From Vallitalea pronyensis (GTDB taxonomy: Bacteria > Bacillota > Clostridia > Lachnospirales > Vallitaleaceae): a DNA stretch of 64,000 nt. Positions 12,943-25,382 of the stretch are shown here, in pieces; the first letter of the stretch is position 1, and every line of letters begins with the position of its first letter. The DNA lies in NCBI RefSeq assembly GCF_018141445.1, contig NZ_CP058649.1, positions 5,909,001 through 5,973,000 on the forward strand, given 5' to 3'. The notes below the pieces were generated by a model that searched no databases, was not told the DNA's origin, and saw nothing but the letters and a program-made list of their open reading frames with translations. A program made the translations under genes and the position numbers.

Positions 12943-13359
12943 TTAGTCATATAATCGCCTTAACATACCTTCAAACGTATTAAAATCATCACCAAGTTTT
13001 TCTCGCATCAAATCAATACATTCATTATAAGCATTCATCTCTGCATTACCAATACTTTCACCTTTTGGTGTTAACTCAATATATTGAACTCTTTTATCTT
13101 TTTTAGAAGCTTGTTTTTCCACCAGTCCAAGCTTGATTAACTTATGAACTGCTGCTGTCAATGTTGGTTTTGTTAAGTCAAGGGCTTCAGCTAAGCTTGT
13201 TATGGTAGCGTTGCTGGTTTCTCGAATACAATATATAAGATTAAATTGGGTATAGGTTATTTCGGAAAGCGCTTCTTTGGTGATGGCTCTTTCCTTATGT
13301 TTTTTTATAATGCTGGACATTTTACTTGTTAATTCATCAAGTACTTGATTCAGTTCCAA
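12943..13359 (-). CDS. MarR family transcriptional regulator
   Basis: A 138-residue winged-helix protein. ATITSLAEALDLTKPTLTAA forms the recognition helix region (about residues 53-72) and KLGLVEKQASKKDKRVQYIE the wing. It lies 22 bp downstream of the MFS exporter gene, so it is cotranscribed and probably represses the pair through the palindrome at 14643-14664. A decayed copy of its 3' half lies 1 kb away beyond the phosphotransferase gene. Confidence 0.9.
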   Translation of the reverse strand: MELNQVLDELTSKMSSIIKKHKERAITKEALSEITYTQFNLIYCIRETSNATITSLAEALDLTKPTLTAAVHKLIKLGLVEKQASKKDKRVQYIELTPKGESIGNAEMNAYNECIDLMREKLGDDFNTFEGMLRRLYD

Positions 13360-13381
13360 TATTCAAATTCCTCCTTCTAGG

Positions 13382-14626
13382 CTAATCCAAAGCTTTTTCA
13401 GCTTTAAGAAACGGAATATGTACAACCAGTTTTAGCATCATACCAACAAAAAGTATCACTAACGCGGTGGTTAAGTAACCTTTCTCAAGTAAGTATCCAT
13501 ACACTAACATACCAACAAGTCGTGACACAGCAAATGTCATAATCATAATCGATATGAACCTACCTAACATAGTAGAAGATACTTCTGATTGGTAGAAACT
13601 TCTGAAAAACACGCCATAAAAACTAAAAGCAAAAAACACCATAAAACATACAATGGATAGATAGATGACAGGGAAATATTCCGTTGTGTCTAGTATATCA
13701 CGAAAACCATTAAATATCAGTAACATAAATAAAGCGACTGCGCCAATCATCCATATGATGCCTCTATTGATATTATCTGCAATCCCTTTTTTCTTTTGAT
13801 ATTGAATAGCAATGAACCCTGAGAAGATAGCTCCCCCTGATATACAACTTCTGACAATACCATAATGAACATCCGGTGCTTTAAACATAACAAATAACAG
13901 GAAAACAACACCGGCTTCAATAAAGGGAAATAAGAACAAATGGGTCAGATTTCCGTTAAGTAAGAGAGATCTTAATCGACGGTTTGATTTAATCATCATT
14001 ATACCTTCTTTAAATTCAAAGAAGATTTTCCCTGTTTTTTTTACGATAACGTCTTCAAAGTACAAATTGAACTCCGTAAAAGCAGAAATGATGAACGTCA
14101 TAGCATCAAAAAGTAATAGTATGGATAGCCCCCAACCTGTATAGATAAGACTTGCAACTAGAGGACTTAGGGTATTCGTAATACTTGTAATGGTGTTGGA
14201 TATTGCATTGCCTTTTGACAAGAAATCCTTATGTACGATTCTTGGATAAATTGTACTAAATGCTGGTCCAAAGAAACAATCACACACCGAAAAGAATATG
14301 AGCGTTATATAGATGGATTGTATACTCAGTTGTGCATGAAGACTAATATACCAAAGTACCATTAACCAGAGCCCTCGAATAAGGTCAAGAAGTATGACCA
14401 TTTTTTTCTTATTTAAGCGGTCCACAATAACCCCTGCATAAGGAGAAATCAATATCCTTGGTATAAATGAAATAGCTATTGTTATACTAAACTGCATGGT
14501 AGAGCCAGTTTTTTTCATAATGTACAGAGCAAAACCTGTCATAAGTATAATATCACCAAGAATAGATGTGTTATGACCGAGTAAATATAAAATAAAATTG
14601 CTGTGTTTTTTCTTAATAAGTGTCAT
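13382..14626 (-). CDS. MFS exporter
   Basis: A 414-residue, 12-helix major facilitator protein of the MFS_3 / enterobactin-exporter-like group. The loop 2-3 motif YAGVIVDRLNKKK is clear near residue 60. The start ATG follows AAAAGGAGG. It is the first gene of an exporter-MarR operon with a near-consensus promoter and operator upstream. Such pairs usually export a drug or metabolite that also releases MarR. The ligand is unknown. Confidence 0.88.
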   Translation of the reverse strand: MTLIKKKHSNFILYLLGHNTSILGDIILMTGFALYIMKKTGSTMQFSITIAISFIPRILISPYAGVIVDRLNKKKMVILLDLIRGLWLMVLWYISLHAQLSIQSIYITLIFFSVCDCFFGPAFSTIYPRIVHKDFLSKGNAISNTITSITNTLSPLVASLIYTGWGLSILLLFDAMTFIISAFTEFNLYFEDVIVKKTGKIFFEFKEGIMMIKSNRRLRSLLLNGNLTHLFLFPFIEAGVVFLLFVMFKAPDVHYGIVRSCISGGAIFSGFIAIQYQKKKGIADNINRGIIWMIGAVALFMLLIFNGFRDILDTTEYFPVIYLSIVCFMVFFAFSFYGVFFRSFYQSEVSSTMLGRFISIMIMTFAVSRLVGMLVYGYLLEKGYLTTALVILFVGMMLKLVVHIPFLKAEKALD

Positions 14627-14793: not shown

Positions 14794-16173
14794 TTATGCC
14801 TCTTGATTCCTCAACTTGGGTACATAACCTCGATAGAACAACAAAAATAATACCGAGGTAATCCCCCACGACACAGGATAACAACTTAGCACCATCATAA
14901 GGGTTGGTCGAAATGGTACAATGAAGAGTATCCATAGTACACGGCATAAGCAGGAACCAAAGAGTGTAATTATCATTGGCCTAAATGATTCTCCCATACC
15001 ACGAATAGCACCAGGCATTACTGCACCTAAGACATATAATACATATAGTGGTGCAAATAAGAACATGATTTGTGACAGAATCTGAATGACATCATTATCT
15101 GTAACCAAAAGACGACCTAATGGTACGTGCCAAAAATATAATCCTACACTTACTAGCCCCACTAATAAGACAGCGATTGAAGCACCTACAACGACACCCT
15201 TCTTAGCACGGTCATATTGTCCAGCACCATAATTTTGGGCTACAAAAGTTGAAATCGTCGTGCAAAAAGCGTCTGAAACATACCAGACTAAAAAGTCCAA
15301 CTTACCCGATACAGCCCATGCGGCAATACTATTAATCCCAAAGGTATTGATACTGGTTTGTATAATCATATTTGAGACAGGATACAGTGTTGATTGAATG
15401 CCTACTGGTAATCCTAGTCGCATAAACTCCTGTAAACAGATCCTATTGAATCGTATTTTACGTAAGTATATTTTACACGGCAAATCGGTACGCATAAGAG
15501 CAATTACGATTAAAACCCCACAGATAAATTGTGACAATACTGTTGCCAGTCCCGCACCAACAATCCCTAGACCGAATGATGCTACTAGTAATATATCTAA
15601 AGCAATGTTAATGATATTGGCTATTATTAAAAAGTAGAATGGTGTCTTTGAATTCCCTAATGCCCTAAAAATCCCTGCACCAATGTTGTAAGTCATGGAT
15701 GCTGCCAACCCACTAAAAAAGATAATCACATATGTAAGGGCTTGATCATAAATCTCTGCTGGTACTTTTAAAAGCTTAATAAAAAATGGTGCAATAATAA
15801 CCGCTATAATCGATAACAAAAGCCCGCCAACAAATGCAAACAACAACGCTGTATGACAAGCATTTGACACCTCTTTTAATTTTTTTGCACCAAAATACTG
15901 AGAAATGATAATCGTTGCTCCTGTTGAAAGACCTACAAAAAAATTAACGGGTAATTTCGTCAGGGTATAAACAGACTCTATAGCTGCTAAAGCCTCTTTC
16001 CCTGCGAAACGTCCTATAATAATGGCATCCACTGTTGCATATAGAGACTGTAACACAATACCAAACAAAATTGGCATGGCAAACAGTACTACTTTTTGCC
16101 AAACAACACCTTCTGTTAAATCATATTTTCTTTTATTTCCTTCTACGTTATGTTTTCTTTTACTTGCTTCCAC
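14794..16173 (-). CDS. MATE family exporter, probable metallophore exporter
   Basis: A 459-residue, 12-helix MATE protein of the clostridial multidrug type. Family landmarks include VDAIIIGRFAGKEALAAIES and the second-half repeat around GAVMPGAIRGMGES. The start is a GTG behind AGGTGATGAT. It follows the histidyl-tRNA-synthetase-like gene by 123 bp and a terminator follows it, making it the last gene of the ten-gene cnt-like operon. Staphylopine leaves the cell through an MFS protein (CntE); here no MFS lies in the operon, so this MATE protein is the natural candidate. That role is inferred from context. Confidence 0.87.
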   Translation of the reverse strand: MEASKRKHNVEGNKRKYDLTEGVVWQKVVLFAMPILFGIVLQSLYATVDAIIIGRFAGKEALAAIESVYTLTKLPVNFFVGLSTGATIIISQYFGAKKLKEVSNACHTALLFAFVGGLLLSIIAVIIAPFFIKLLKVPAEIYDQALTYVIIFFSGLAASMTYNIGAGIFRALGNSKTPFYFLIIANIINIALDILLVASFGLGIVGAGLATVLSQFICGVLIVIALMRTDLPCKIYLRKIRFNRICLQEFMRLGLPVGIQSTLYPVSNMIIQTSINTFGINSIAAWAVSGKLDFLVWYVSDAFCTTISTFVAQNYGAGQYDRAKKGVVVGASIAVLLVGLVSVGLYFWHVPLGRLLVTDNDVIQILSQIMFLFAPLYVLYVLGAVMPGAIRGMGESFRPMIITLFGSCLCRVLWILFIVPFRPTLMMVLSCYPVSWGITSVLFLLFYRGYVPKLRNQEA

Positions 16174-16296
16174 ATCATCACCTATGTTTTTTATTGTTAT
16201 TCAAAAGTTAACTTAATACGTGTCATCGCCTCATTTGCATGGTTCATAGCATTATAACCACGAGTATCTTTGGTTGCACCTCCTTAACGCTTACAT

Positions 16297-17304
16297 TTAA
16301 CTTGCTGATTCTATAGACTCTATGGAATAACCCTTGGTAATTAAATACTCTGCAATACGGGTTACGCCAATACCAGCCCCACTATGGGTACAATTGGGAT
16401 TCGATGGATCGATGAGTAGATTTCCACCGCCTGCAATGGCTTTATCGTAGCCTGGGACACGTGCATCATAGATAATCGTCGTGTATGCATCCCATGTCTT
16501 TGGCATATAAGGCACAAGAACAATGGACTCTTTTCCACAGATTTTACTAAAGGTATCGTATATAATTTTTAAATGGTCAATGGCATCCAATGCCGATGCA
16601 TCATCTACTGTCTTTCTCAAAATATCAAAGGTCAGCCGTCGTTCACCAGACAGCTTCATAAGATATCGGAGTTTCTTTGCAAAAGCTGGATTACCTCCTT
16701 GTTTCGTGAATTTTTTGTAAAATCTGTCCCCATCTTCATGACATCTATCGATTAGCATTGAAACGTCTAGCATGTTGTCAACACCATACTGCTGACACAA
16801 CCCTTTAAAAATCTGCTTATTCGTCACTCTAAAATAATAGTCTTCAAGTGGCAACCCCTGTAAACATCTATACAATGTTTTGATGGACTCAATGGACAAC
16901 GCTGTATCATCTTGCCCAAATACTTCATAGCCAATTTGCCAAAATGAAAAGGTCTTCCCTTCTTCTATATCTTTATGAGATTCATTTCTCATCATTTCTT
17001 GAGAATAGAATATCTTATTTTCTGTATTAAGTAAGTTGTTACGATGTAAATACTCATACACACGAAAAGTGTACTCCGGTGACAATATATAACTTTTATC
17101 CCTAAACAAGAAATCGATAAAAATTTCAGGAAAATTTGCACCCAGTATATGTAGATGATTTTCGTAAATGGAACGTTTTGAAATAATGCCACCATAAAAA
17201 TAGTCAAAATCAAGAGATAATAATTTTTTTTCTAATACTGTTCGAATAGATAAGAATGTATGGGCATTTTTCCCCATCCATTCTTTTGAACCGCTAATAA
17301 ACAT
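16297..17304 (-). CDS. Histidyl-tRNA-synthetase/HisZ-like class II synthetase paralogue
   Basis: A 335-residue stand-alone class II core. Motif 2 region: MMRNES (R106) then GKTFSFWQIGYEVFG at 116-130, matching the GRYREF-Q-G-E-G stretch of HisRS but lacking its second Arg. Late region AYTTIIYDARVPGYDKAIAGGG parallels the HisRS YYTGTVFE...AGGRYDGL histidine-binding segment in degenerate form. Motif 3 GAGIGVTRIAEYL keeps the ATP-binding Arg (R316). There is no anticodon-binding domain. It lies between the aminotransferase and MATE genes of a metallophore operon with no his genes nearby, so a biosynthetic role (amino acid activation or ligation, or histidine sensing) is more likely than translation. 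RBS AAAGGAG. Confidence 0.75.
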   Translation of the reverse strand: MFISGSKEWMGKNAHTFLSIRTVLEKKLLSLDFDYFYGGIISKRSIYENHLHILGANFPEIFIDFLFRDKSYILSPEYTFRVYEYLHRNNLLNTENKIFYSQEMMRNESHKDIEEGKTFSFWQIGYEVFGQDDTALSIESIKTLYRCLQGLPLEDYYFRVTNKQIFKGLCQQYGVDNMLDVSMLIDRCHEDGDRFYKKFTKQGGNPAFAKKLRYLMKLSGERRLTFDILRKTVDDASALDAIDHLKIIYDTFSKICGKESIVLVPYMPKTWDAYTTIIYDARVPGYDKAIAGGGNLLIDPSNPNCTHSGAGIGVTRIAEYLITKGYSIESIESAS

Positions 17305-17326: not shown

Positions 17327-18463
17327 TTACTTTGCCGACAAATGACACACCAATTGATCCAGTGATGCTAAAAATGTCTGATTGCATAAAGCAAGGTTGA
17401 TTCTAAATGCAAATCCAAAGGTTTCATCAAGACCATTGAGAAATGAAGGATAAAAAGCTTTGCCTGTACTGTTAATAACCTCTTCTATAAATGAATGGGA
17501 TTTAATCTGATCAAAGGTTAAATTGTTAAAATAAAGTGTCATAAGGGAACCTGTTTCAATCTCATCACTTTCTACATTAATCTTTGATTGTATAATTTTT
17601 ATTACTTCCTTATGAGCAGTGACCATAAATGCTTCATATGCCTGTAAGCAGTCATTATAATTTGGGCTTAGAAAATGCGTTATTGCACTTAGTGAAGACG
17701 CTGGTAAATTACCTGTTAATACATCTACCCAATGTTCGATAAACATATCAAAGCGCTGGGGATAAACAATAGCCGCAAACTTAAACGTGTTTAGACACAA
17801 CGATTTATGAGGGGAGTATATGGCAATAAAATTATCTCTGTTACTCACTCGCCGAAGGAGTTCATTGCCTGATACACAAAAACATTCATCGGATATAATC
17901 AATGTCCCCATATCCATTAATGTGTGCATCATCTCTTCGATTTCAGGACCGTGATAAACACTTGTAGAAAATATAGGTGACGTCAACCAGATAACATCGT
18001 ACTCCGATTCTACTAAGGTTTCAAATGGCAAGATATACTGACCATTTTCCCTTATTAGATTGACCTCATCATATGCTATCTCAAAAGCTTTTAAGGCCTG
18101 GGCAATAGAAAAATAGGCGGGATTGATAATGCATATCTTTTTATACTGATGTTGCTTAATCATGTTAACCAAAGTGATGATGGCCTGTGTACCGTTATCA
18201 ACAAAAGTAATCCCCATTTCATCACCTGTTCTTGGATCAAGCTTTGCCTTCACCCCATCAAGGATGTGCTTATCCATGGAATAGGTATAGACATACTCTA
18301 ACGTATTTATCTCAGGCATTTCTATTTTTGAGCGCATGGTCATTGCGTATTCAGGAGAAGAGAGCCAGCTTGACACATTGTAGGGTTGTTGTCCATAACT
18401 ATCACAATATCTATTCTGAATATCTCTCATCTCAAGCATTTGGGTAATTCGTTCTATAAACAT
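17327..18463 (-). CDS. Fold-type-I PLP aminotransferase of the metallophore operon
   Basis: A 378-residue class I/II aminotransferase-like protein. D192 in IISDECF should contact the PLP ring nitrogen. K220 in YSPHKSLCLNTFKFA is the expected Schiff-base lysine. The usual NPxNPTG loop is replaced by TSPIFSTS and N-terminal spacing is atypical, so the substrate differs from common amino acid aminotransferases. It starts 21 bp after the CntL stop and ends 23 bp before the synthetase-like gene. Beside a nicotianamine-synthase-like enzyme it could act like plant nicotianamine aminotransferase on the CntL product, or supply a precursor. The function is inferred. Confidence 0.78.
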   Translation of the reverse strand: MFIERITQMLEMRDIQNRYCDSYGQQPYNVSSWLSSPEYAMTMRSKIEMPEINTLEYVYTYSMDKHILDGVKAKLDPRTGDEMGITFVDNGTQAIITLVNMIKQHQYKKICIINPAYFSIAQALKAFEIAYDEVNLIRENGQYILPFETLVESEYDVIWLTSPIFSTSVYHGPEIEEMMHTLMDMGTLIISDECFCVSGNELLRRVSNRDNFIAIYSPHKSLCLNTFKFAAIVYPQRFDMFIEHWVDVLTGNLPASSLSAITHFLSPNYNDCLQAYEAFMVTAHKEVIKIIQSKINVESDEIETGSLMTLYFNNLTFDQIKSHSFIEEVINSTGKAFYPSFLNGLDETFGFAFRINLALCNQTFLASLDQLVCHLSAK

Positions 18464-18483: not shown

Positions 18484-19281
18484 TTACTTTTTAAACATAA
18501 CCACATCAAATACATTATCATTGAAGTGAATGCTGTCAGCTTCACGCCATGGCCCTTTTTGGGCCTCTATTAAAGGATAATTAAATAAAGACTTAAAGCC
18601 ATTGCCATAACGTATCGATACCACAACATCATCATTGGTCAACGGATAAAGATCACGAAGAATCTCCAATTTTTCAGGAATAGTGGACGCAATAATAATG
18701 TGTGTGGCTTCTTTGACATAGGCCAAATCTTTATAACTCTGGGTGTTCACCTCTATATCTAAATCTTTCCCTAAAAGATGCAGCACTTTTTTTGCATAGT
18801 CTACAGCCTCATCATCAATGTCGATACCAACAACTTTAGCACCTGTGTTTTTAGCAATCGTAAGTGGTGTCATTGGAAAGGCGCCTACGCCTATTAACAG
18901 AATGCGTGCATGCTCATCAACGACAAATTTGCCAAACTCTTCTTCTATACACCCTTCAACATTTTTAAAATAATCTGCTGGTGCATCATTGGCATGTATC
19001 AGCGTTTCGGCTCTGTATTTTTCCATCTTCCATACACAATGAGCAGATTCTCTTCGTATAGCATGAATTCTTTTTTTAATTTCTGTTTTTTGGGGATCAA
19101 TGAATGTATCCCATGTCTGTCGATAATTGTCATCTAAAATAAACGTGGTGTATTCTTCTAGTGCCATTTCTAAGTCAGCCGCGGCGTTTACTCCACTATC
19201 GTGCTGTGAATTAATGTCTGAAAATCGATTGATAAATCCATCTAACGTGCCTAACAAACTACTTACTTTTGAATTAACCAC
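18484..19281 (-). CDS. cntL: Nicotianamine-synthase-like aminobutanoyltransferase
   Basis: A 265-residue protein, the length of bacterial CntL. After an N-terminal helical region comes a Rossmann SAM-binding core: ILLIGVGAFPMTPLTIAK, then GAKVVGIDIDDEAVDYAKKV, then VSIRYGNGFKSLFNY. Family members transfer an aminobutyrate unit from S-adenosylmethionine onto an amino group; in staphylopine synthesis the acceptor is D-histidine. The start is a GTG behind GAGGAGG. It lies 14 bp after the racemase-like gene in the same order as staphylococcal cntK-cntL. It is followed by an aminotransferase instead of cntM. Confidence 0.85.
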   Translation of the reverse strand: MVNSKVSSLLGTLDGFINRFSDINSQHDSGVNAAADLEMALEEYTTFILDDNYRQTWDTFIDPQKTEIKKRIHAIRRESAHCVWKMEKYRAETLIHANDAPADYFKNVEGCIEEEFGKFVVDEHARILLIGVGAFPMTPLTIAKNTGAKVVGIDIDDEAVDYAKKVLHLLGKDLDIEVNTQSYKDLAYVKEATHIIIASTIPEKLEILRDLYPLTNDDVVVSIRYGNGFKSLFNYPLIEAQKGPWREADSIHFNDNVFDVVMFKK

Positions 19282-19295
19282 TACTTATCCTCCTC

Positions 19296-20123
19296 TTACT
19301 CAATAAACGCAGTCCCTATAGCAGATATAAAAACATCTTCCTCTATGGTAACCTGTTTAATACATCCTTTATCATATATTGCCTCTGCTAAAATATAATC
19401 ACCTGATGGCTGAATGATACGAAGTGCTGTACTCTTTTCCTGTTTATTGGCCATATAGGCGGCTAAGGATGCTGAGGCAATACCACAACTATTTTCCCAA
19501 ATTTCTGTATCTGTTTCTTTTACATAAATGAGCGGTGTGATACTCAAATTATCCGTATTACACAGTGTTACGCCTTTTATTGTGTAATCATTCCCCATAC
19601 CATGATGCAGAATGTATTTGACTAATGCTTTCGGTTGAGGGTGTACATGATCGTCATAGACAATACGCTGACATGCATCTGCATAGTCAACACAGCCAAT
19701 TTCCATAAGTCGTCCCTTATAATCCACCACCTCATCTTGAATATGTAAAGGACAAGGCATTGTAATCTTGGTACGAAAGCCTTTCTTTAACCTTTTAGTG
19801 TAGCATTTTACTAAAGTGTCACTACCTGATACTTCAAGTGTACACTGTGTCTTCTCTCCTACTTGCAGTTCTTCATTGTAAGCCATATAAACGCTAAGAG
19901 AAGCTGCCGCATTTGCACAAAATTCACCACCCATCATTTGTAACCGATAGTCAGCTTCCCGATTATTAGCTTTTTCAATAAACCCCACTTGTTCTGCATA
20001 CACGGATTCTAGTGCCATCAATGTTTTTGACAGCTTAGGGTATTGATTTCGAGGATGTTCGTCTAATACTAAAACCGTTGCATTCTTATTGGGATTCATT
20101 TTTACAAACTTTATTTTCTCCAT
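19296..20123 (-). CDS. cntK: Histidine racemase-like CntK (DapF fold)
   Basis: A 275-residue member of the diaminopimelate-epimerase fold. The two catalytic cysteines are visible in GGEFCANA (C69) and ENSCGIA (C213), with spacing as in CntK. The location beside cntL, with no lysine genes near, supports amino acid racemisation (L- to D-histidine in the staphylopine system) over DapF activity. The start ATG overlaps the end of the ATPase gene by 13 bp. RBS GGGAG. Confidence 0.85.
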   Translation of the reverse strand: MEKIKFVKMNPNKNATVLVLDEHPRNQYPKLSKTLMALESVYAEQVGFIEKANNREADYRLQMMGGEFCANAAASLSVYMAYNEELQVGEKTQCTLEVSGSDTLVKCYTKRLKKGFRTKITMPCPLHIQDEVVDYKGRLMEIGCVDYADACQRIVYDDHVHPQPKALVKYILHHGMGNDYTIKGVTLCNTDNLSITPLIYVKETDTEIWENSCGIASASLAAYMANKQEKSTALRIIQPSGDYILAEAIYDKGCIKQVTIEEDVFISAIGTAFIE

Positions 20124-20926
20124 GGTCGGTTCTCCCTTGTCAAAATGGTCACCAAATCTTTAGACATAGCCATTAGGGTTCTGGTGTACGCTTCCTTTGG
20201 ATCCTTCACTAACGCCTGTGCCATACCGTGTTCAATACACTGTCCTTGATACATCACCATCACCCGCTCACAAAAATTGCAGGTTAGGGACAAATCATGA
20301 CTGACAAAAATGATTGTCACACCAAGTTCCCGATTTAACTCCTGAAGTAATTGGATAACTTCGGCTTGCACAAGAACATCTAGGGCACTTGTTATTTCAT
20401 CACAAAGGAGTATCTTGGGTTGTATTGAAAGAGCTCTTGCGATAGCAATTCTTTGACACTGACCACCACTTAAATGATGAGGGTATCTGTCTGCTAATCC
20501 TGGTAATATCTTAACCCGTTCTAATAGTTTGTCTATTTCTTGATTACACGCCTTCAAAGACATGGATGGGCGTAGCCGTCTCATATTCTCTAGAATCGAA
20601 GTCCTTAGCTTCCGACGGGGGTTAAATGAAGCAATAGGATTCTGAAAAACCATCTGTATATTTTGATAGATATATTCTGCCCCTTTGCTACGTAAATGGG
20701 TAATGTCTCTTCCCAGCAGCTGAACATGGCCATCTGTAGGTTGTTCTAATCCTGTTAACAACTTTAATAATGTACTTTTGCCGCTACCACTTTCTCCAAT
20801 AACACCTAGAATCTCACCTTCAAACAGTTGAAGTGTCGTTGGTTTTAATGCTGCTACTGTATGTTTGTTGCGTTTAAAAGTCTTGGAAATTCCCTGGACC
20901 TTCAGCAACGGTTCTGGGCTATTCAT
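20111..20926 (-). CDS. cntF: ABC ATP-binding subunit, CntF/OppF type
   Basis: The start is the ATG at 20926 with GGAGG 8 bases before it. The 271-residue ATPase has Walker A GESGSGKST (near residue 50), ABC signature LSGGQCQR and Walker B ILLCDEITSALD. It is the second ATPase of a two-ATPase peptide/nickel-type importer; its partner is encoded 20 bp upstream. Context (cntABCD upstream, cntKL downstream) points to metal-metallophore uptake. Confidence 0.87.
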   Translation of the reverse strand: MNSPEPLLKVQGISKTFKRNKHTVAALKPTTLQLFEGEILGVIGESGSGKSTLLKLLTGLEQPTDGHVQLLGRDITHLRSKGAEYIYQNIQMVFQNPIASFNPRRKLRTSILENMRRLRPSMSLKACNQEIDKLLERVKILPGLADRYPHHLSGGQCQRIAIARALSIQPKILLCDEITSALDVLVQAEVIQLLQELNRELGVTIIFVSHDLSLTCNFCERVMVMYQGQCIEHGMAQALVKDPKEAYTRTLMAMSKDLVTILTRENRPWRK

Positions 20927-20945
20927 TGCTTTTTCCTCCACTCAT

Positions 20946-21719
20946 TTAAGGAATTGCTTTTAATAATTGGTTTGTATACCAATGCTTTGGCGCCAGTAGA
21001 ACCTCTCTGATATCACCAAATTCAACAATTTGTCCTTTATGCATAATGGCAACCGTATCACATATCTGTGCAATCATTGATAAATTATGAGAGACCATGA
21101 TCATAGACAGTTCTGACATTTTTCTTAAGTGCCACAGTTCTTCTACTACTTGTGCTTGACTTGCTGCATCTAATGCACTCGTTGGCTCATCAGCCAATAT
21201 CAATGATGGCTGCAACATCATGGATACAACAATGGAAATACGCTGGTTCATCCCACCGCTCATTTCATAAGGGCAACTGGATAAAATACGCCTACCATCA
21301 TCAAGTCCTAATTGCTTAAACAAAGCTTGTATAGCACTTATAGACTTCTTTCCCTGCCACATATTGTGACTCTTCAAAGTTTCAGCAAATTGTTTTTTAT
21401 AAGGTCGTATTGGGTTAAAGTTTGTGTATGGATTCTGAAGAATCATGCCAATTTCTGTTCCTTTAATTTTCTGTCGTTCTGCTGGTGTCCATTCAGACAC
21501 CATCATCCCTTTATACTGAATTCGCCCTTTTTCCACGGTAACACCGTAACTTTCAGGGTCGACAATTGCTTTTAGTAACGTGCTTTTTCCGGAACCACTT
21601 TCACCTGCAATACCAAGGCTCTCGCCTTTGCTAAGGGATAAGGTAATATGTTTACCAACACAAGTACTACCATAATTTAATTGTAGATTCTGTATTTCTA
21701 ATATGTTTTCCTTTGACAT
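20946..21719 (-). CDS. cntD: ABC ATP-binding subunit, CntD/OppD type
   Basis: A 257-residue ATPase with Walker A GESGSGKST, a signature of the form MSGGMNQR and Walker B ILADEPTSALD. It ends without the long C-terminal extension of oligopeptide OppD, as is common in nickel/metallophore importers. It begins 2 bp after the permease gene and pairs with the ATPase at 20111-20926. Confidence 0.87.
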   Translation of the reverse strand: MSKENILEIQNLQLNYGSTCVGKHITLSLSKGESLGIAGESGSGKSTLLKAIVDPESYGVTVEKGRIQYKGMMVSEWTPAERQKIKGTEIGMILQNPYTNFNPIRPYKKQFAETLKSHNMWQGKKSISAIQALFKQLGLDDGRRILSSCPYEMSGGMNQRISIVVSMMLQPSLILADEPTSALDAASQAQVVEELWHLRKMSELSMIMVSHNLSMIAQICDTVAIMHKGQIVEFGDIREVLLAPKHWYTNQLLKAIP

Positions 21720-21720
21720 A

Positions 21721-22563
21721 CTAACCTTTAACCTCCAACAAGTCTCGGGCTGTATCGCCTAGATAATTAAATAATAAAGCAGTCAATACCACTGCTGTTC
21801 CCGGCGCCATAACCGTCCACGGTGCTAACTGAATATAGGCCCTAGATTCACTAATCATGCTTCCCCACTCTGCTTGGGGAACTTGCACGCCAAGACCTAA
21901 GAAAGACAAACCTGCAAACCCAATGAGCATGGTGCCCATTTGAATGGTGGCATTTACCAATAAAGGTCCAGCGATATTGGGTAGTATATGCCTTACCATA
22001 ATATAGAGCCCACCATGTCCTCCTAAACGGGCTGCATAGACATACTCTTCCTGCCTAGCTGAAAGTGTTTGACTCTTAGCCAATCGCGCATAAAGAATCC
22101 AACTGGTAAAGCCCAGAGCAATCATAGCGTTGGCCATACCCCCTCCTAAAATACCTGCTACTGCTATGGCTAAAACCATTTGAGGTATGGACAATAAGAT
22201 GTCAATTAAGCGCATAATGATACTATCAAGCACCCCACCATAATAGCCACACAAAAGACCTATAAAAGTACCCACGATAAAAGTGATGCTTACGAGTATC
22301 AATGTGGCACCAATACTGGTTCTCGCCCCCATCAACACACGACTAAAGACACAACGTCCATAATTATCTGTTCCCATGATATAGTGTTGATTTGGCTTAG
22401 AACGAATAGCCGTGGCATCGTTTTTGAAAGGATCATTGGGTACAATGAGCGGCGCTAATAAGCTGACAACAAGGAAAATTGCAGCAATGCACAACAACAA
22501 TACAAAACGATTTTTTACACGTGTTCTTTTTGTATATACTCTTTTCTCATAAATTCCTTGCAT
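21721..22563 (-). CDS. cntC: ABC permease, CntC/OppC type
   Basis: A 280-residue membrane protein with one N-terminal helix and about five more. It has the periplasmic signature HYIMGTDNYGRCVFSRVLMG near residue 60 and the EAA loop AARLGGHGGLYIMVRHILPN near residue 180 that docks the ATPase. It follows the CntB-type permease by 13 bp. It belongs to the peptide/nickel importer family (DppC/NikC). Confidence 0.88.
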   Translation of the reverse strand: MQGIYEKRVYTKRTRVKNRFVLLLCIAAIFLVVSLLAPLIVPNDPFKNDATAIRSKPNQHYIMGTDNYGRCVFSRVLMGARTSIGATLILVSITFIVGTFIGLLCGYYGGVLDSIIMRLIDILLSIPQMVLAIAVAGILGGGMANAMIALGFTSWILYARLAKSQTLSARQEEYVYAARLGGHGGLYIMVRHILPNIAGPLLVNATIQMGTMLIGFAGLSFLGLGVQVPQAEWGSMISESRAYIQLAPWTVMAPGTAVVLTALLFNYLGDTARDLLEVKG

Positions 22564-22576
22564 ATTATCCTCACTT

Positions 22577-23503
22577 TTATGGCTTAATTCTTGGATCCAA
22601 ATACCTATAACTTATATCAATCACTAAATTCGTGATCACATACATGGCAGCGGTAAGTATGACAAAACCTTGTACCACTGGATAGTCACGATTGACAATT
22701 GCCTCCATCACTAACTTGCCAATCCCTGGCCACATAAAAATATTCTCGATGACCACACTACCACCAAGTAACGTACCAATGGATAAACCAACAACCGTTA
22801 TGATGCCTGGCAGTGCATTTCTCAAGGCGTTAAAGAAGAGAATATAACCCTCTTTTACACCTCGAACTCTTGTGCTTGCAATATAATCTTTATTCAATTG
22901 TTCCAACATTTCTGTACGTACTTGTCGCAGTAGACGGCTGCACATAGGAATCGAAAGGGATAATGTAGGCAATAGCAGTCCTTGTATATTATTCTGTGCG
23001 ATAATAGGAAACCATTTATAACGAATGCATAAGAAATACATGAGTAAAATACAAATTAAAAAGTTAGGCACACTATTACCCATAAAACTAATCATCCGAA
23101 TGATATTATCTGTGACACGACCTTGACGTATAGCCGTGTATACACCTAATGGAAAAGCTATTAGAATAGATAATCCCATGCTTAAGCTGGATAAAAGCAG
23201 GGTGTATCCAAATGCTTCCCACAGCTTATTCGACACGTTTATACCATCTTTATAGCTGGTACCCATATCTCCCTGCAACAACTTGAACAACCAAGTACCA
23301 TACTGTATCCCAAAAGGTTTATCTAAACCCATTTCATGTCTCATGTCATGTAATATGTCTTCTGAAACGATAACACCATTGAATCTTAAGCGTTGTTGAG
23401 CAGGATCGCCAGGTGCCATATAAAGCAATGCAAATGTAAGAATGGATACCCCAAATAAAATAGGAATTAACTGTAACAACCTTTTTATCACATACTGAGC
23501 CAT
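22577..23503 (-). CDS. cntB: ABC permease, CntB/OppB type
   Basis: A 308-residue, six-helix permease opening MAQYVIKRLLQLIPILFGVS, the standard DppB/NikB start. Its EAA loop is STRVRGVKEGYILFFNALRN (about residues 205-224). It begins 3 bp after the binding-protein gene with only a weak ribosome site, suggesting translational coupling. It forms the channel with CntC. Confidence 0.88.
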   Translation of the reverse strand: MAQYVIKRLLQLIPILFGVSILTFALLYMAPGDPAQQRLRFNGVIVSEDILHDMRHEMGLDKPFGIQYGTWLFKLLQGDMGTSYKDGINVSNKLWEAFGYTLLLSSLSMGLSILIAFPLGVYTAIRQGRVTDNIIRMISFMGNSVPNFLICILLMYFLCIRYKWFPIIAQNNIQGLLLPTLSLSIPMCSRLLRQVRTEMLEQLNKDYIASTRVRGVKEGYILFFNALRNALPGIITVVGLSIGTLLGGSVVIENIFMWPGIGKLVMEAIVNRDYPVVQGFVILTAAMYVITNLVIDISYRYLDPRIKP

Positions 23504-23506
23504 ATG

Positions 23507-25096
23507 TTATTCTTTATCCGTCTTAGCATCAATGCCATAGAAATCAAATGGACTTGTTTCTGCAAAACCAGAAACACCTGAGCTCAGTACTGTTGACTTA
23601 TTGAAAATTGCAACATAACCAAATGCGTTGTCATCTATGGTGATTTGAATAATTTGGTTCGCTAATTCTGCTCGCTTTGCTGTATCCATTTCACTGGTCA
23701 ATTTTGTAATTAATGCTTCACAATCTGCATTATCAAAACCAGCAACATCATAATAGGCACCATCTTTTAACGTATTCGTAATGAAATATGCCGGATCACC
23801 AGATAGGTCTGCATTCATACTGTATAACGCAATATCAAAATCTCTTGTTGCAATATAAGTGCTATCCGGTTTTTCTTCACTGGTTAAAACAGATTGTATA
23901 CCAATATGCTTTAATTGCTCCTGCATAATTGTTGCCAATACATCTAGAGAACGACCAGGGTAATAAGCGATGTTAACTTCGAGTACCTTGCCATCTTTCT
24001 CAAAATAACCTCCGCTGTTTCGTACATATCCATCTTCTTCAAGTAAAGTAATGGCAGCTTCTGTATCTACAGACGGCTTATGCACCTTACCATATGCACT
24101 TGAAGCACTAAATGGACCTGCTGTTGCACTCACTGTACCACCTAAGTAAGATACAATATCTTCTGCATTCACCGTTAAGTTAATGGCTGCACGTACTTTG
24201 TCATTCAATCTTTCTTGATTTAAAAAATACATTTGAAGGCGTGTTGCTGGAACGGTTACCAGATTATAAGCTGCTGGGTCTGCACTAAAAATCTCCATGG
24301 CTGCTGCATTAACACCGTTATAGCAATCAATTTCGCCATTTTGCATTGCCATTAATAATGTGTCTGGATCTGGTATACGATAAAATACAGCTTTATGTAA
24401 GACAACATCACCATCCCAATAGTTTTCATTTCTTAGGAGTGTGGTTTTTTCTTGGGATTCAAAAGACTCTACAACAAAGGGACCTGTTGCAATAATCCCA
24501 TTATCAAAATCTGTTATTTTGTCTAAATGAAGCATACCCATTTCACAACTTGACAACGTATTCAGCATGGTAGGAAAAGGAATTTCACTTGCAATCGTAA
24601 AAGTCTTATCATCTACCACTTCATATGTAAAGTCAGCTAAATAAGCAAATCTTGGGTTTTCAGCAGCAACACGCATAATATTGCGAACCACCATATCTGC
24701 CACCAATGGATCACCATTAGAAAATTGAACATTATCTTTAAGTAGAATTGTCCAAACAAGGCCATCTGCACTACCACTTTCAGCTAATAATGGCTCAAGA
24801 GAAAAATCATCTCCTACTTTAAAAAGTGTTTCTGTAATACCATAAGTACTTGTATGCCATCCACTATAGCCCTTGTGTGTATCTAAGGAACTGGGTGAAT
24901 ACTGTACGCCTATATTCAAAATCTTCTTTTCCTGTTCTTTTGAATCCTCGTTTTTTGCCCCTTTCTCAACGGTAGTAGAAGCTCCTGTACCTTCTGCGTG
25001 TGCTACAGTATTTTCTTCCTGTTCAGCTGATGAGCAACCAACTAACATTAAAAAAACTGATACACAAATAACTTGCATTAAACCAATTCTTTTCAT
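23507..25096 (-). CDS. cntA: Metallophore-binding lipoprotein, CntA-like SBP family 5
   Basis: The start is set at the ATG at 25096 with GAGGAGG 5 bases upstream. The 529-residue product begins with a lipoprotein signal (lipobox LMLVGC, C21) and a Ser/Glu/Lys-rich linker. The SBP_bac_5 fold of peptide/nickel-binding proteins follows. It is the first gene of the operon behind the Fur-box promoter. In staphylococci the equivalent CntA binds the metal-staphylopine complex; here the ligand is probably a related but different metallophore. Confidence 0.85.
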   Translation of the reverse strand: MKRIGLMQVICVSVFLMLVGCSSAEQEENTVAHAEGTGASTTVEKGAKNEDSKEQEKKILNIGVQYSPSSLDTHKGYSGWHTSTYGITETLFKVGDDFSLEPLLAESGSADGLVWTILLKDNVQFSNGDPLVADMVVRNIMRVAAENPRFAYLADFTYEVVDDKTFTIASEIPFPTMLNTLSSCEMGMLHLDKITDFDNGIIATGPFVVESFESQEKTTLLRNENYWDGDVVLHKAVFYRIPDPDTLLMAMQNGEIDCYNGVNAAAMEIFSADPAAYNLVTVPATRLQMYFLNQERLNDKVRAAINLTVNAEDIVSYLGGTVSATAGPFSASSAYGKVHKPSVDTEAAITLLEEDGYVRNSGGYFEKDGKVLEVNIAYYPGRSLDVLATIMQEQLKHIGIQSVLTSEEKPDSTYIATRDFDIALYSMNADLSGDPAYFITNTLKDGAYYDVAGFDNADCEALITKLTSEMDTAKRAELANQIIQITIDDNAFGYVAIFNKSTVLSSGVSGFAETSPFDFYGIDAKTDKE

Positions 25097-25212: not shown

Positions 25213-25213
25213 T

Positions 25214-25232
25214 GATAATGATTATTATTATC
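25214..25232. promoter_or_regulatory. Fur box upstream of cntA
   Basis: GATAATGATTATTATTATC matches the classic 19-bp Fur consensus (GATAATGATAATCATTATC) at 17 of 19 positions. It ends one base from the -35 box, so a bound Fur dimer should block RNA polymerase. This predicts induction under iron starvation, as for other nicotianamine-like metallophore operons. A Zur or other Fur-family protein could also read such a site. Confidence 0.75.
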
Positions 25233-25382
25233 ACTACAAGAATGAGCAAATGTGCATTATTGCTTATTCTTTGAACAATAAAAATTTAATAAAAATTGGA
25301 TGAAGTTTTATGTAAATATAGGGCAGGAGAAAAAGTTGAGTCACTTTTCCAACCTCAATAATCATTTACAATGTGAATACGC

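Follow-up and report, generated by a model that had tools for sequence, protein, structure and literature searches.

In staphylopine synthesis, CntK produces D-histidine, CntL adds an aminobutyrate moiety and CntM condenses the resulting product with pyruvate (PMC5719457). CntM was taken as the anchor of the survey mapping bacterial nicotianamine-like metallophores and, according to its authors, CntM-free ones would be missed (PMC7438024). Amide or acyl transfer outside translation is performed by paralogues derived from synthetases of other families, such as MshC, SbzA, PoxA and AsnA, the only bacterial HisRS paralogue listed in the same review being the non-catalytic HisZ (PMC9437257). In a literature search, no paper was found that describes a synthetase-like gene as part of a metallophore cluster. 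Here we describe, in a 64-kb stretch of DNA (hereafter the window), a HisRS-like gene located in an operon with CntK- and CntL-type genes.

A CntK-CntL operon without CntM

The HisRS-like gene is the last of nine minus-strand genes separated by gaps of -13 to 22 bp, in the order solute-binding lipoprotein, two permeases, two ATPases, CntK, CntL, PLP enzyme and HisRS-like gene. The NikA/CntA-like lipoprotein (23507-25096; PF00496, E 2.4e-61; NF045468, E 1.1e-72) has an ORF that, as listed, extends to 25147, the likely start being an ATG near 25096 after GAGGAGG. It is followed by an ABC permease of the nickel type, B subunit (22577-23503; NF045470, E 8.4e-112, over the cut-off), a permease of the nickel/oligopeptide type, C subunit (21721-22563; NF045474, E 2.3e-86), an ABC transporter ATPase whose best NCBIfam match is the staphylopine uptake protein CntD (20946-21719; NF047578, E 5.2e-67, below the cut-off) and an OppF/NikE-like ATPase recognized by an NCBIfam profile (20111-20941). 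The CntK-type histidine racemase (19296-20123; NF033599, E 1.1e-48, 166 bits for a cut-off of 300) keeps, as C69, C213 and E210, the three residues Cys72, Cys211 and Glu208 of S. aureus CntK, whose active site consists of the catalytic pair Cys72/Cys211 and Glu208 (PMC11602996). The CntL-type nicotianamine-synthase-like aminobutyrate transferase (18484-19281; NF033601, E 7.6e-75, 251 bits for a cut-off of 350) is matched by the S. aureus CntL structure 7c7m with an E-value of 1.9e-53. Both of these proteins, typical of a Cnt opine-type zincophore operon, are found here, though each below its equivalog cut-off. The metallophore setting and the racemase-like neighbour, read earlier from the sequence only, are borne out: genes of the CntK and CntL types stand in one gene string with an ABC importer of the Nik/Cnt type.

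The eighth gene (17327-18463) encodes a diverged fold-type I PLP enzyme of 378 aa, aminotransferase-like, with NCBIfam matches far below the cut-offs (PatB-like, E 2.9e-07; GntC, E 6.6e-06) and a single-sequence structure model that is unusable (pLDDT 35). The hallmark residues D192, K220 and R354 are kept. They are also common, as are DE, SPHK and FRxNL, to this enzyme and a 27% identical relative (E 7.5e-58) from another genome of the class, which passes the Aminotran_1_2 cut-off. The gene of this relative (L117, on the 3964-bp contig C34 of genome G826) has in its vicinity an nspC gene (407 bits), resembling that of carboxynorspermidine decarboxylase, which suggests that the PLP family is also found with carboxyalkyl-amine metabolism.

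A Fur-box-like operator (25213-25233, minus strand) precedes the operon, matching the E. coli consensus at 18 of 19 positions and containing two overlapping 7-1-7 sites; it is directly adjoined by a promoter-like site, TTGACA / TAATAT (25212-25184). It is the sole Fur-box-like site in 64 kb, where 0.13 would be expected, and a sequence scan for a Zur box gave none above chance. Because of this strong match, and since no Zur-type site stands out, iron control is our first guess for the operon, general metal control being possible.

Downstream of the HisRS-like gene, at a distance of 123 bp, lies a MATE-family exporter gene (14794-16173, minus strand; TIGR00797, E 1.9e-59, over the cut-off), possibly the metallophore exporter, an association by position only. 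Between these two genes, a 28-codon open stretch on the minus strand (about 16204-16290), following the HisRS-like stop, reads GATKDTRGYNAMNHANEAMTRIKLTFE and is possibly the remnant of another gene. Beyond the MATE gene, a MarR-type regulator and a Mef-like MFS exporter (12943-14626, minus strand) have their own good promoter-like site (14703-14675). No carrier protein gene was found among the operon ORFs, no tRNA gene within the 64-kb window and no Rfam element such as a T-box between 9000 and 32000.

No CntM is found in the operon, and PF10100 has no match over the cut-off in the whole genome. CntM lies beside CntL in most of 59 CntL-type loci of other species, and in nearly all of the close ones examined. 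The CntM-free CntL-type neighbourhoods (L060, L063, L065, L066, L068, L070, L071 and L073) belong mainly to distant NAS-like genes and contain neither a HisRS-like nor a comparable PLP neighbour. L060, L063, L066, L068, L070 and L071, in Bacilli, have no adjacent CntM and varied neighbours. One CntL match of the same class (L076) is of the other zincophore type, with a FecCD importer and CntM. A regular co-occurrence of the HisRS-like gene with cntL and the aminotransferase gene, proposed for checking in the sequence-only reading, was examined from the other side: the 59 loci have no HisRS-like or PLP neighbour of the window's kind, and the genome of the PLP-enzyme relative has no third HisRS-like paralogue. 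The window operon is in this respect a concrete case of CntK and CntL without CntM.

The HisRS-like protein and its paralogues

The HisRS-like gene (16297-17304, minus strand) starts with ATG after a Shine-Dalgarno sequence rated good (AAAAGGAG), is separated by 22 bp from the upstream PLP gene and has a codon usage resembling that of its neighbours. The ORF encodes a class II synthetase core of 335 aa, as had been read from the letters, and its sole Pfam match, tRNA-synt_His (PF13393, E 1.3e-16), is above chance. Motif 3, GAGIGVTR, is located at residues 309-316 and the chain stops just past it, so that the anticodon-binding domain is absent, both points in agreement with the sequence-only reading; for comparison, HisS and HisZ of the same genome have 415-425 aa. 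The protein is about 20% identical overall to HisRS. It obtains 68 bits with the HisZ model TIGR00443, its best NCBIfam score, and 64 bits with the HisS model TIGR00442, far under the cut-offs of 271.65 and 287 bits, respectively, and its sequence matches in the PDB are L. lactis HisZ and HisRS. A Pfam search gave no match to the profiles of the AsnA and EpmA/PoxA families.

A protein search for homologues of the HisRS-like protein gave none in up to about 810 genomes, drawn as three overlapping sets (22 of the family, 392 of the order and 398 of the phylum), and none among plasmids, phages and viral contigs. A scan of 85,000 genomes with exact 8-residue peptide words, an insensitive method, gave none either. 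The HisRS-like gene with the PLP enzyme is known here from one locus.

The genome contains one hisG (contig C1, 3.295 Mb), directly after a full-score HisZ (342 bits) and before hisD. The sequence-only reading had left room for a HisZ serving a hisG without its own regulator, an alternative that does not apply to this genome, as a full-score HisZ directly precedes hisG. The identity of the HisRS-like protein as a missing HisZ was rejected, this hisZ-hisG-hisD operon being present elsewhere in the same genome. In each of 22 related genomes, one or two genes are picked up by the HisZ model, namely HisZ and HisS, and among these relatives and the window genome, only the latter has two more, the HisRS-like gene and a HisS-type gene at C1:624219. 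This second HisS-type gene (C1:624219-625202, L002/L009; 415 aa), in a group where the related genomes have one HisS each, is nearer to the HisRS type of L086 than to the main HisS. Since two other HisS-type genes are present, the HisRS-like protein is not needed for tRNA charging, and a role as back-up HisRS for translation, which would also have to do without an anticodon domain, was rejected.

For residue tallies and phylogeny we used an alignment of 36 rows comprising HisS and HisZ of the same genome, HisZ and HisS of relatives and HisRS from viral contigs; the latter are ordinary HisRS that served as alignment rows only, and row L105, which behaves as HisZ, was counted as such. In the tree, the HisZ rows form a clade supported at 100/100 and the HisRS-like protein falls outside it. 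Its branch is very long (7.16), which means fast or relaxed evolution, and at such a length its placement as sister of HisZ or of one HisS group is rejected in neither case (p-AU 0.48 each).

A structure model of modest confidence (pLDDT 63, pTM 0.66), for which the protein was aligned to five HisRS sequences, has as best match T. thermophilus HisRS with histidine (1adj; Z 17.3, 217 residues, 3.3 A). The model supports a HisRS core fold, evidence that is not independent as the alignment rows were themselves HisRS. AsnA and EpmA are not among the fold matches listed, which does not count against either.

Conservation of the ATP and histidine sites

In nearly all class II structures, two arginines grip the phosphate of the adenosine nucleotide, and in HisRS the motif-2 Glu contacts adenine (PMC5919687). 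The HisRS-like protein keeps this arginine pair as R106 (motif 2; E. coli R113) and R316 (motif 3), and the Glu as E108 (E. coli E115). The motif-3 Arg is present in 15/15 HisRS rows and the motif-2 Glu in 14/15, with one Asp, whereas R316 and E108 have no counterpart in 20/20 HisZ rows. The motif-2 Arg reported missing from the letters alone is therefore only partly so: the catalytic R106 and E108 are present, and the changes concern the loop, where R121 is replaced by K117, R123 by F119 and three residues are added.

The histidine site, described as degraded in the same reading, is altered at some positions and intact at others. E83, T85, Q127, E131 and Y264 of E. coli are kept as E77, T79, Q123, E127 and Y274. 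In contrast, Y263, a Tyr in all 35 other rows, is replaced by A273 and the GGRYD loop is lost through a 3-residue deletion (GGG---NLL). The HisRS-specific catalytic arginine, R259 in E. coli, is here a lysine, K269. This substitution is the weakest point in the case for a ligase, since activation could be slowed by it or abolished; together with Lys and Phe in place of two motif-2 loop arginines, it may lead to weak or absent activation. The loss of Y263 and of the GGRYD loop would give space for a substrate bulkier than histidine itself, for instance the product of CntL.

Possible role in metallophore synthesis and comparison with known systems

We propose, with a probability of roughly 45%, that the HisRS-like protein acts independently of tRNA as an adenylate-forming ligase and, jointly with the PLP enzyme, takes over from CntM the completion of a histidine-based metallophore. 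This is the most economical reading because the ATP residues and the imidazole contacts are kept in an operon that handles histidine. The operon would make and re-import a histidine-derived metallophore under iron, or possibly general metal, control: CntK would form D-histidine, CntL would attach an aminobutyrate unit taken from SAM, and the PLP enzyme and the HisRS-like protein, in an order that is conjectural, would complete the pathway in place of the opine dehydrogenase CntM. We infer that ATP is bound through R106, E108 and R316, and that E77, Q123, E127 and Y274 hold an imidazole-bearing substrate, either histidine or, given the changes at Y263 and in the GGRYD loop, more likely the bulkier CntL product. 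The substrate carboxylate would be converted to an AMP ester and passed to an amine, presumably giving an amide. The activation of histidine or of the CntL product, put forward in the sequence-only reading, fits the conserved ATP-site, imidazole-contact and CntK residues as well as the missing CntM; amide formation, the other part of that proposal, is conjectural.

In the main rival to the ligase, the protein would resemble HisZ in being a regulatory subunit without catalysis, binding histidine and tuning CntK, CntL or the PLP enzyme to the histidine supply. HisZ is a known bacterial HisRS paralogue without adenylation activity (PMC9437257). The HisRS-like protein shares with it the loss of R259 and the Lys at R121, gives its top NCBIfam score with the HisZ model and is not rejected as its sister in the tree, but the conserved motif-2 Glu and motif-3 Arg, a 100/100 clade of HisZ rows that leaves it out and the true HisZ-HisG pair elsewhere in the genome make such a histidine sensor unlikely. 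The residues in favor of a ligase would equally suit an enzyme that forms the adenylate and hands the amino acid not to a metallophore amine but to a thiol or carrier, to a protein lysine as EpmA does, or to a tRNA, each of these transfers being performed by class II paralogues (PMC9437257). We consider such acceptors improbable in an operon devoid of a carrier protein gene, for a protein without anticodon-binding domain and in a window without tRNA gene.

Two further explanations appear to us very improbable. The protein could be a paralogue in decay, or one recruited only recently, that has no working role and travels with the operon, as its single occurrence, its very long branch and several changes at normally invariant sites would allow; against this stand 335 open codons, a ribosome-binding site, tight spacing, a codon usage in the normal range and ligand residues that persist at an overall identity of only about 20%. 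In the other, the operon would yield the CntL product as such, or a variant for which the PLP enzyme alone is responsible, while the HisRS-like protein would serve for self-protection or modify the re-imported chelator. In known pathways CntK and CntL alone do give an identifiable intermediate (PMC5719457), but the HisRS-like gene comes immediately after the genes for biosynthesis, at 22 bp, and nothing positive points to protection.

Returning to the adenylate-forming ligase, we suggest only tentatively, and as something rather doubtful, that it would be the first HisRS-derived tRNA-independent amide ligase, finishing with an uncharacterised PLP enzyme a non-opine histidine metallophore and defining a CntM-free nicotianamine-like branch. 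If true, this branch would be invisible to CntM-anchored surveys, and HisRS, provided that the HisRS-like protein does form amides, would be added to the synthetases known to be recruited for small-molecule assembly.

Compared with HisRS itself, the protein has the same catalytic core, with the equivalents of the motif 2 and 3 arginines and of E83, T85, Q127, E131 and Y264, and differs in that it has no anticodon-binding domain, a Lys in place of R259, an Ala in place of Y263, no GGRYD and a longer motif-2 loop. It resembles HisZ as a stand-alone bacterial HisRS paralogue that has lost R259 and scores best with the HisZ profile, whereas its gene is not beside hisG, the motif-2 Glu and the motif-3 Arg are kept and the genome already has a HisZ. 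The likeness to AsnA, EpmA/PoxA, MshC and SbzA is one of principle, a synthetase core reused outside translation for amide or acyl transfer; these proteins derive from other synthetases and none in the review is HisRS-derived (PMC9437257). With the staphylopine, pseudopaline and bacillopaline (Cnt) operons, the locus has in common CntK, CntL, a Nik/Cnt-type importer and, by sequence match, a metal-type operator; it differs from them in the nearest exporter gene, which is MATE instead of MFS, and in the PLP enzyme and HisRS-like genes, which stand in the place of CntM.
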